64,000 nucleotides of DNA from Mesorhizobium sp. B4-1-3 (GTDB taxonomy: Bacteria; Pseudomonadota; Alphaproteobacteria; Rhizobiales; Rhizobiaceae): the NCBI RefSeq assembly GCF_006439355.1, contig NZ_VFTG01000023.1, positions 1 through 64,000 on the forward strand. Reading direction: 5' to 3'. Below the pieces are notes generated by a model. It worked only from the letters and a program-made list of their open reading frames with translations, made no database searches and had not been told where the DNA came from. Shown piece after piece: positions 36,087 to 38,176 of the stretch; within the stretch, counting starts at the first letter, position 1; each line of letters opens with the position of its first letter. The translations under genes and the position numbers were made by a program.

Positions 36087-36316
36087 CCATCCGGGAAGAG
36101 CGGCGGTTTGTCAAGCCTCTGTCGCCAAAGTTGGTGAGAGCGTTTGCGGCTTTTGGCTAGCGCGGCATAACGGTCATGGGGCCAATTGACCCCCGCCGGA
36201 GGCCAAGGAGGATTCAGATTTCATCGTTGCCAAACCTGCGACCAAATCGTCGATCTCAAAGACATTCGCCAGGTTATGTGGCACCAGGGGGATCATGAGC
36301 CGCTTGAGACGGACGC

Positions 36317-36544
36317 CTAGTCCGGAATGCGTCGATAGCGGAAATGACTGCGAATATGGTTGTTGAAAAACCGGCCTTTGACAAAGGCCGACCGGAACGC
36401 GGCGTAAGTCTCTGGCGGAACCTCCTCGAAGTCGTAGCGCTTGCCGCTGGCAACGAACCAGACGGACAAGACTCTACTTGCCGCATCGTATTCGGTTTTC
36501 TCGATCGAGGTGGACGGCATGGCGCACCACGCTGGTTTGCTCAT
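36317..36544 (-). CDS. KTSC-domain small protein
   Basis: This protein of up to 75 residues matches the KTSC domain: STSIEKTEYDAASRVLSVWF, then KRYDFEEVPPETYAAF and a C-terminal FFNNHIRSHFRYRRI. The KTSC function is unknown, though the domain is found alone or beside nucleic-acid enzymes. The start may be 36544 or the ATG at 36520, which gives MPSTSIEK and fits the domain better. No clear Shine-Dalgarno sequence supports either. Confidence 0.72.
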   Translation of the reverse strand: MSKPAWCAMPSTSIEKTEYDAASRVLSVWFVASGKRYDFEEVPPETYAAFRSAFVKGRFFNNHIRSHFRYRRIPD

Positions 36545-36599
36545 CGCAAACGGTCGGAATGCCGCTTTTGTTTCAGAAACACGAACCTATAACGCCGGC

Positions 36600-36818
36600 A
36601 TGAAGACGATAGCGACGTACGATTCGGCTGCCGGGACCTTCACGCTGGAGAAGGGCGTCTGGCGAGGAACATTCCCGGTCGCGGACTTGCCGAAGTGGCT
36701 GAACTTCTATCGCCAGCAGATGGAGCGGTATCCAGCGCATGCAGGCAACTACGCGCATGATGTGGAAGCGCTCGAAGCATTGGCGGCCGAACTCCGCAGT
36801 CGGTCAGCCTGTGGATAG
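36600..36818 (+). CDS. Hypothetical small protein
   Basis: This 72-residue frame begins MKTIATYDSAAGTFTLEKG, with PVADLPKWLNFYRQQMERYP later. The protein-like composition suggests a real gene, but I know no family. The frame is open upstream to 36441 (an ATG at 36519 overlaps the divergent KTSC start). Its stop lies inside a 26-base element repeated at 37117-37142. Confidence 0.45.
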   Translation: MKTIATYDSAAGTFTLEKGVWRGTFPVADLPKWLNFYRQQMERYPAHAGNYAHDVEALEALAAELRSRSACG

Positions 36819-36834
36819 TAACCGCCTATTCACC
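36809..36834. repeat. Degenerate 26-base direct repeat, copy 1
   Basis: CTGTGGATAGTAACCGCC followed by TATTCACC matches copy 2 at 37117-37142 at 23 of 26 positions. Both copies lie at or just after the stop of a small plus-strand gene. Confidence 0.6.
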
Positions 36835-36923
36835 TACCCCGGCGCACGGAGCCCATACTGACTGAGAGTCCGGAACAAGGCCTCGCGATCATCGTTGGTC
36901 GGTGACCGATCGGAGCGCAGTGC

Positions 36924-37115
36924 ATGAAAAGCTATGTGGTGGAGACAATGGCCGGTGAAGTCGTGACAGCCCATCGAATAGTGACAGCCGAAACGCCGCT
37001 GGACGCCGCCAGAATCGGAACCGGCCGCGAGGTCCATGAGAGACGCGACGAGATGGAGTGGGTGCGAGTGACCGAAGAGGCCGACGCAGCCGTGTTTTGG
37101 TTCGCTTTCAAATGA
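36924..37115 (+). CDS. Hypothetical small protein
   Basis: This 63-residue protein begins MKSYVVETMAGEVVTAHRI and ends DAAVFWFAFK. GGAGC lies eight bases before the ATG. There is no recognised family; the pattern suggests a small beta-rich protein. It lies between the two copies of a 26-base repeat in an accessory stretch. Confidence 0.55.
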   Translation: MKSYVVETMAGEVVTAHRIVTAETPLDAARIGTGREVHERRDEMEWVRVTEEADAAVFWFAFK

Positions 37116-37116
37116 T

Positions 37117-37142
37117 CTGTGGATAGTTACCGCCCGTTCACC
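37117..37142. repeat. Degenerate 26-base direct repeat, copy 2
   Basis: CTGTGGATAGTTACCGCC followed by CGTTCACC; see the copy at 36809-36834. The pair may mark duplication of a small-gene unit. Confidence 0.6.
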
Positions 37143-37576: not shown

Positions 37577-37768
37577 ATGAAGATGCGGCACAACGGTTTT
37601 GCCACGCCGGAACAGCTGGCGATACTTACCGAAGCCCTTAAGGAACTTGGAGCCGAACTCCCGCTGGACAGCCCCGAGCGCGAGACGCTGGCAGCGGAAA
37701 TCATGACGCTGTTTGAGAACGGGATTGAAACGGTGGACGAGTTAAAGGCAGCGCTGTCCAACGCATGA
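37577..37768 (+). CDS. Hypothetical small helical protein
   Basis: This 63-residue protein contains TPEQLAILTEALKELGAEL and IMTLFENGIETVDELKAALSN, reading as amphipathic helices. GAGGGGCTCAGGGG precedes the ATG. It ends exactly at the A-rich arm of the terminator shared with the convergent peptide operon. There is no known function. Confidence 0.6.
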   Translation: MKMRHNGFATPEQLAILTEALKELGAELPLDSPERETLAAEIMTLFENGIETVDELKAALSNA

Positions 37769-37799
37769 AAAAAGCCCGCCGGGCGGTGAGCCGACGGGC
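37768..37799 (-). terminator. Rho-independent terminator of the RiPP-like peptide operon
   Basis: On the minus strand GCCCGTCGG and CCGGCGGGC form a 9-bp stem with one G-U pair and an 8-base loop, followed by TTTTTT. It ends the transcript of the two peptide genes at 37823-38085 and may also serve the convergent gene ending at 37768. Confidence 0.8.
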
Positions 37800-37822
37800 C
37801 TCAAATTTTCAGTCCTTAGCCA

Positions 37823-37915
37823 TCATCCGATGGCAGGCGGTACCGACGGTCCAGCAACGATGGCAGAAAGCTTGGCCTTGCGAACAAGAACGGGCTTTTC
37901 ATAGGTCTTTTTCAT
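37823..37915 (-). CDS. 30-residue RiPP-precursor-like peptide
   Basis: The reverse strand encodes a 30-residue peptide beginning MKKTYEKPVLVRKAKLSAIV and ending with a short Gly/Pro/Ser-rich tail (AGPSVPPAIG). The YEKPxLxRxxxLSxV pattern resembles the leader part of lasso-type and other proteobacterial RiPP precursors, and similar peptides are annotated as putative RiPP precursors in Mesorhizobium. GGAGAG lies six bases before the ATG. It is 17 bases downstream of a small secreted peptide gene and is followed by a strong terminator. No maturation enzyme is next to it. The coding assignment is good; the RiPP assignment is inference. Confidence 0.68.
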   Translation of the reverse strand: MKKTYEKPVLVRKAKLSAIVAGPSVPPAIG

Positions 37916-37932
37916 CAAATCTCTCCAGAGCT

Positions 37933-38085
37933 TTAATTGCCGCCGGGCCGGCTATCCGCGGAACGATCACCGCAGCGCGATCCGTCGGAGGCCGTGTCAT
38001 AGTCATGTTGGCAGTTTCCAGCAAACGATGCCGTCGAGGCACCCAGCGCGCTGACTAACAGCGCGATGAACATAAAGATTCGCAT
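37933..38085 (-). CDS. 50-residue secreted Cys-containing peptide
   Basis: The reverse strand encodes a 50-residue protein with a signal peptide MRIFMFIALLVSALGASTAS and predicted cleavage near SFAG. A mature part of about 27 residues follows (NCQHDYDTASDGSRCGDRSA and then DSRPGGN), containing two Cys. Small proteins with a TASDGSRCGDRxADxRPGG-like tail are, from memory, widespread in rhizobia and of unknown function. AAGGGGG lies before the ATG. It heads a two-gene operon with the RiPP-like peptide. Confidence 0.72.
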   Translation of the reverse strand: MRIFMFIALLVSALGASTASFAGNCQHDYDTASDGSRCGDRSADSRPGGN

Positions 38086-38176
38086 TCAAACCCCCTTATT
38101 GGTTGCGCGGCTAAGTTGAACTTGTCCGGCGGCGGGGTCAAGCCAGGGTTTATTTCCGCCGCTGTTCGTCGACACA

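Follow-up and report, generated by a model that had tools for sequence, protein, structure and literature searches.

A 30-residue open reading frame (ORF) on a contig of Mesorhizobium sp. B4-1-3 raises the question of whether it encodes the precursor of a RiPP and, if so, which enzymes would mature a product whose gene has no maturase in its vicinity. In the window, the whole stretch of 64,000 nucleotides that was analysed, two ORFs follow each other on the minus strand where the original prediction had located them, one encoding a 50-residue peptide of the secreted type (37933–38085) and, directly downstream with a spacing of 17 nt, the 30-residue one (37823–37915, ATG to stop; MKKTYEKPVLVRKAKLSAIVAGPSVPPAIG). 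The latter has a good Shine–Dalgarno sequence, GGAGAG (37921–37926, minus strand), sitting 5 nt ahead of its ATG, and a GC-rich hairpin with a T run resembling an intrinsic terminator lies beyond it (about 37765–37801, minus strand), both features having been noticed in the original prediction as well. A −35-like box, CTTGAC (38137–38142, minus strand), is located ahead of the 50-aa ORF and hence upstream of both frames. Based on the alignment of 63 peptides described below, residues 1–21 (MKKTYEKPVLVRKAKLSAIVA; 37853–37915, minus strand) constitute a leader with a YxxPxL motif of the RRE-binding type, followed by the core GPSVPPAIG (37826–37852, minus strand), whose serine codon at 37844–37846 would be the site of the proposed modification.

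The 30-residue frame and its surroundings

Comparison of the window with Rfam yielded zero families at the gathering score, and ARAGORN found no tRNA in it. No maturase was found near the 30-aa ORF either: the window lies on contig C16, and the only lasso-B2-type matches of the genome are on contigs C7 and C45.

The 50-aa secreted-type peptide, which includes the sequence part C...DGSRCGDRSADSRPGG, was matched in 24 of the 146 genomes of the genus at E up to 0.01, with some of these matches being weak and two containing stops. Of 20 loci scanned, two have it in the neighbourhood of a family peptide, and the window is one of these. The pair is therefore not a conserved unit, and the idea of a two-peptide operon acting as a functional unit had to be given up, as the 50-aa peptide is missing from most of the genomes searched and seldom stands beside a family peptide. 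It looks incidental, and its ORF is probably outside the conserved system.

Judged from its conservation at the amino-acid level, the 30-aa ORF is real and conserved. Two paralogues in its own genome, with 93% identity over 29 residues (E 4.9e-12) and 82% identity over 28 residues (E 2.4e-8), place the frame beyond chance, and the relatives described below bear out the conservation that the original prediction presupposed. What that reading overlooked is that the ORF is one of many dispersed copies. Its view that frames of this length are too short for routine gene calling finds a first hint in three matching Mesorhizobium plasmid records, for which the gene table, itself incomplete, lists nothing at the place in two cases and a 'hypothetical protein' in the third.

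The closest relative of the window copy is a copy on contig C2 of the same genome, 93% identical over 91 nt, which together with a small-gene block (36192–37122) repeated near other copies points to a recent duplication. This block contains a KTSC-domain ORF (PF13619; 36317–36544, minus strand), a 125-aa ORF (36441–36818) and a 63-aa ORF (36924–37115), and recurs with 79–87% identity near peptide copies on the own C2 as well as in G008 and G004. The LysR gene of the window was matched in 40 of the 146 genomes of the genus; among 12 fetched matches, a peptide was present in the 1.5-kb flanks only at that of the own genome and at 0 of the 11 from other genomes, so that the window site is not common to those 11 genomes.

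A dispersed peptide family

The own genome contains ten family places, comprising eight intact genes with starts and two degenerate copies, one without a start and one without the first leader residues. A search of 41 genomes gave family matches in 18 of the 25 genomes of the genus and in 0 of the 16 from other families of the order. A profile of 50 members detected peptides at E up to 1e-4 in 101 of the 146 genomes of the genus, the positive genomes having 1 to 27 copies each; as no more than 56 candidates per genome were scored, these copy numbers are lower bounds. The copies are distributed over different contigs, occurring singly or in small tandem groups.

TTGAC is present within 120 nt upstream of 48 of 63 copies (mononucleotide shuffles: mean 5.5, maximum 13), for which reason most family copies look individually promoted. 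Terminator-like hairpins follow 20 of the 63, compared with 3 in one shuffle, leaving most copies without a terminator by the same test, whereas a Shine–Dalgarno sequence precedes 62 of the 63 under a loose criterion with no control set. Next to an exonuclease-like gene, a peptide recurs at the same site in eight genomes (L003, L013, L018, L049, L056, L057, L059 and L060; ten loci, two of them overlapping others), and some dispersed copies, such as those at this site, may thus be of old origin and in synteny.

Constant leader and variable core

The analysis of leader and core was based on 63 distinct peptides, i.e., all matches with E under 1e-5 except the L010 copy, which has no start codon; the degenerate copy on C2 (L004) was excluded with its E of 0.0079, and 2 of the 63 are without a standard start at the aligned position. 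Their leaders follow the pattern KKxYxxPxL...LS...A and are under purifying selection, with a pN/pS of 0.39 over all pairs, a crude value given that synonymous sites are near saturation. Pro8 is invariant (63/63) on all four codons, whereas Leu16 and Ala21 are each retained in 62 of the 63 peptides, on five and four codons, respectively, confirming the codon-preserving substitutions among relatives that the original prediction implied. The RRE-binding motif of the YxxPxL type is present, with Tyr in 62 and Pro in 63 of the 63 peptides and Leu, Phe, Val or Trp two residues after this Pro in every one. Leader position −2 is occupied by Thr (28), Val (27), Ala (5) or Ile (3); in PMC10368454, lasso leaders are described as keeping Thr at −2, with Ile being able to serve as well. 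The NCBIfam models lasso_leader_L3 (NF033521) and lasso_cyano (NF033528) match 23 and 35 of 50 family members, respectively, at E up to 1, the window peptide remaining under both cut-offs (13.5 vs 19 bits and 13.2 vs 33 bits).

Mean pairwise identity is 0.61 for the leader and 0.17 for the first six core residues, the cores being variable in sequence and 5–15 residues long. Serine was nevertheless present in all 63 distinct cores, encoded by TCN as well as AGY codons, with its first occurrence at core position 1–6 and at position 4–5 in 41 of them. In 2000 random shuffles of the core residues, 15.4 cores were without Ser on average and 6 at minimum, compared with the observed 0 of 63, a comparison to be taken as a guide and not as a true probability, since the peptides are related by descent. 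One core subfamily carries paired cysteines around the Ser (CPISQC, CPISHPC and CAPSNPC; loci L019, L025, L026, L027, L038 and L054).

Two loci with B2-type proteins

The own genome has two loci with B2-type proteins, on separate contigs; in genomes with both on one contig, the two B2 genes are 12–33 kb apart. Locus 2, on contig C45 (locus L067), encodes the PqqD-type RRE protein B1 (L067:6107–6394; PF05402, 43 bits, cut-off 23), a B2 Cys protease (L067:6394–6825; NF033537, 68 bits, cut-off 33), an HprK-like kinase (L067:6822–7802) and an NTP_transf_5 nucleotidyltransferase (NTase; L067:8801–9826). A formyltransferase-like protein and one adjoining family peptide complete the locus, which is without a cyclase. 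This cyclase-less B1-B2-HprK-NTase cassette on another contig fits the distant maturase that had been postulated for a RiPP-precursor-like peptide in the original prediction.

The kinase scores under the curated cut-offs (34 of 200 bits for TIGR04352, 22 of 33 for PF07475), and its P-loop residues and DD pair are invariant across 13 kinases. Likewise, the Cys and His of B2 are invariant in 80 rows and the DxD of the NTase in 79 rows from the named loci. A model of B1, obtained with 13 sequences (mean pLDDT 83), matches the TbiB1– and TfuB1–leader complexes with TM-scores of 0.76–0.88 and Foldseek E-values of 2e-5 to 2e-4, and a PDB sequence search with B2, kinase and NTase resulted in zero matches at E up to 0.1. 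Comparing the neighbours of the cassette with 15 reference proteins, no exporter was recognised; the ABC protein of the lasso cluster gave only matches of low identity, kilobases from the cassette in some loci.

Locus 1, on contig C7 (locus L069), is a complete lasso cluster embedded in a polysaccharide locus and comprising B1, B2, a cyclase (NF033535, 775 bits, cut-off 525), an HprK-like kinase and an ABC transporter. It carries its own precursor (L069:10275–10427, minus strand) with a classical leader and a core Asp9. This precursor is nearly unchanging (MEQNVEKxEYExPSLTVHGSIETITQGG...LTFS), and the same one was also found at L071, L074, L079, L082, L084 and L086. In G086 (C1:628774–630671), the lasso cyclase match is split in two pieces, which suggests a broken or frameshifted gene.

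Co-occurrence of cassette and peptides across the genus

The kinase of locus 2 served as the marker for the cassette in the count of 146 genomes, the other cassette genes being seen in the fetched loci; absence of a cyclase homologue was called at E 1e-150, and part of the negatives in the presence table was obtained by subtraction from the positive lists. The kinase was found in 97 and the locus-1 cyclase in 102 of the 146 genomes. All 97 kinase-positive genomes have at least 3 peptides, with a range of 3–27, and 4 of the 49 kinase-negative ones keep one peptide each. This holds for the 91 genomes with both kinase and cyclase, each having at least 3 peptides, and the 38 genomes with neither have zero. 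The six genomes with the kinase and no cyclase homologue contain 6–15 copies (G055, G071 and G142, 6 each, the G142 assembly being 79% complete; G085 and G109, 7 each; G145, 15). The 11 genomes with the cyclase and no kinase contain zero peptides in seven cases and one in the other four (G058, G138, G151 and G059, the last being weak at 9e-5). As kinase-only genomes keep their peptides and cyclase-only genomes have none or one, the peptides go with the cyclase-less cassette, and the dispersal of the copies makes a joint loss with the cassette hard to explain by physical linkage.

An rpoB tree was used that covers 80 genomes selected from those whose rpoB match is complete or nearly so, namely 40 of the 97 kinase-positive and 40 of the 49 negative ones. 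The cassette changes at least 8 times on this tree, and among the 6 independent pairs located on supported branches, the peptides went along with the cassette 5.2 times on average and the opposite way 0 times. The corresponding sign test is weak (median p 0.0625), rendering the independent-pair result suggestive rather than conclusive.

Linkage in cis and in other genera

Of 297 genomes of the family, 20 have a relative of the kinase with an E of 1e-20 or lower; they belong to 10 of 109 genera, one of which is the own genus. Thirteen of the 15 matched loci from other genera were fetched; in nine of these, B1-B2-kinase-NTase is accompanied by family peptides (E under 1e-3), including arrays of 10, 5, 5, 5 and 4, one contains weak peptides and three contain none. 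Among 7 further loci fetched from the genus, 4 have a cis peptide. The search for a maturase elsewhere in the genome, as advised by the original prediction, thus led to a cassette whose occurrence in the genus parallels that of the peptide family and which, in other genera, has family peptides of its own in cis.

From a scan of named genomes, 80 of 102 relatives were retained, comprising 57 Mesorhizobium loci and 23 other loci, the latter being records not named Mesorhizobium, of which at least one (L260 = G018) belongs to the genus. M. ciceri WSM1271, a laboratory strain, also carries the cassette (locus L224). A peptide lies no more than 7 kb from the cassette at 22 of the 57 Mesorhizobium and 16 of the 23 other loci, leaving 35 of the 57 without a cis peptide, and a cyclase was found over this range at 0 of the 57 and 1 of the 23. 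The holders of cis peptides include Aquibium, Ahrensia, Oricola indica, Ancylobacter koreensis, Prosthecomicrobium pneumaticum, Chelativorans and Roseovarius. The dispersal in Mesorhizobium may go back to ancestral arrays in cis that became scattered, arrays of this kind being still seen in other genera.

The cores of the cis peptides were counted after leaving out one of 82 hits that is without the motif. Ser is present in 26 of 26 Mesorhizobium cis cores and in 46 of 53 distinct cores from the other loci, where the remaining seven carry Thr and no Ser, so that Ser or Thr occurs in 53 of 53. Shuffling of the latter set left 13.7 cores without Ser on average (minimum 6) and 5.6 without Ser and Thr (minimum 0); the seven Ser-less cores lie at the low edge of these shuffles, and many of the 53 are array sisters. 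As far as these sequences indicate, the Ser rule is clearest in Mesorhizobium. Asp or Glu at core positions 7–9 occurs in 1 of the 26 Mesorhizobium cis cores and in 10 of the 53 from other loci.

Proposed maturation and alternative explanations

We consider it likely that the 30-aa ORF encodes a trans-acting precursor for the distant, cyclase-less, lasso-derived cassette and that this yields a linear, Ser-modified RiPP. The RRE protein B1 would bind the YxxPxL leader, the HprK-like kinase would phosphorylate the conserved Ser of the short core, the NTP_transf_5 protein may add another group, and the B2 Cys protease would cut after Ala21, releasing a linear product of 5–15 residues with no macrolactam being made. 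One cassette would in this way serve 3–27 scattered minigenes per genome, whose leaders are nearly constant and whose cores vary. The position of the cut follows the logic of lasso B2 proteins, whereas RRE binding, phosphorylation of the core Ser and the possible nucleotidyl transfer are proposed by analogy with the Linear Polyphosphorylated Peptides (LPPs; PMC13381572), an analogy by which the product is probably a linear, Ser-phosphorylated RiPP. According to the same article, LppK of the Bacillota system does not phosphorylate a Thr placed at its target site; with 7 of the 53 other-genus cores having Thr and no Ser, the kinase may here differ in specificity or act on another residue. The wider picture, in which a cyclase-less alphaproteobacterial branch of the lasso machinery uses one trans cassette to turn 3–27 scattered, mostly self-promoted minigenes per Mesorhizobium genome into a combinatorial, genome-wide repertoire of short, linear peptides with a modified Ser, is in our judgement evenly balanced between true and false. 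The peptides produced might have a role in signalling or in decorating the envelope.

Among the alternatives, the ORFs could encode unmodified small proteins, e.g., regulators or signals, in which the leader-like part is itself functional and the correlation with the cassette reflects a shared niche. This correlation is indeed partly phylogenetic, with 8 changes over 80 genomes, but the RRE-type motif in the leader, the arrays adjoining the cassette in several genera and the retention of the core Ser amid the variation (identity 0.61 for the leader, 0.17 for the first six core residues) render this explanation unlikely. We regard it as very unlikely that a repetitive or mobile element merely carries the copies along as passengers, which duplicate without a role at the product level: the window copy does resemble a recent duplicate, its neighbouring block is repeated near other copies and the flanks of the LysR-gene matches from 11 other genomes contain zero peptides, but the leader is under selection, the Ser is kept with both types of codon and the scattered copies are missing where the cassette is missing. 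Least probable is the reading as ordinary lasso precursors served by the complete cluster on C7 (B1-B2-C-HprK-ABC), for although the leaders bear a lasso-type motif, weakly match both lasso models and share the genome with a true, cyclase-containing cluster, only 3 of the 63 cores have Asp or Glu at positions 7–9, the window core is acid-free, the C7 cluster owns a precursor with Asp9, and the peptides stay in the six cyclase-less genomes and number 0–1 in the 11 having a cyclase and no cassette kinase. The lasso product entertained in the original prediction was consequently rejected on core acidity and on the partition of cyclase and cassette across genomes, the cassette itself having no cyclase.

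Relation to known peptide systems

The trans-acting precursor that we favour has a parallel in the prochlorosins, where one ProcM acts on many distal precursors with a constant leader and a variable core. Both systems combine a single maturation system with many scattered precursors of this build, whereas the prochlorosins differ in their lanthipeptide chemistry, with enzymes and a leader that are unrelated to the present family. RiPP mining usually seeks precursors beside maturases; as most precursors here are located elsewhere and have under 40 codons, they would be apt to escape both gene callers and cluster-based tools. A literature search over CC-licensed PMC articles found no paper on this Mesorhizobium peptide system. 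If the proposed maturation is true, linear kinase-modified RiPPs extend past Bacillota, lasso-type RRE and B2 proteins work without a cyclase, and a legume-symbiont genus owns an unrecognised library of small peptides.

LPPs (Popov et al. 2026, PMC13381572) are stated by their authors to be restricted to Bacillota, with an RRE, an HprK-like kinase and an NTP transferase acting on a linear precursor and the kinase phosphorylating core Ser3. The likeness comprises a discrete RRE of the lasso B1/PqqD type, an HprK-like kinase and an NTP transferase in the core set, the absence of a macrolactam cyclase from both the LPP clusters and this cassette, a YxxP leader preceding a variable core with Ser near its start (Ser3 in LPPs), and the frequent presence of lasso clusters in the same genome. 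The protease is signal-peptidase-I-like in LPPs and a B2 Cys protease in this cassette, and LPP precursors number 1–3 per cluster with 35–200 aa, compared with 3–27, mostly dispersed, of about 26–36 aa here. Compared by eye, the family shares only YxxP with the LPP motif YxxPxVLxHQxIxFETxxS, and the MsbA-like exporter of the LPP core set has no counterpart recognised in this cassette with the 15 reference proteins. With another leader motif, another protease in the cassette and an occurrence outside the stated LPP range, the peptide system is LPP-like in its working and not LPP.

Phosphorylated lasso peptides of the paeninodin/pseudomycoidin type, as covered in PMC13381572, share B1, B2, HprK-like kinase and nucleotidyltransferase with the cassette; they have in addition an asparagine-synthetase-like cyclase and an acidic core ring residue, both of which are missing here. 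By core acid and cyclase, the peptide family falls outside the definition of a lasso peptide.

In a separate observation, a cyclase-type gene was found together with the cassette and a family peptide at one Roseovarius locus (L281), making this locus a possible intermediate.
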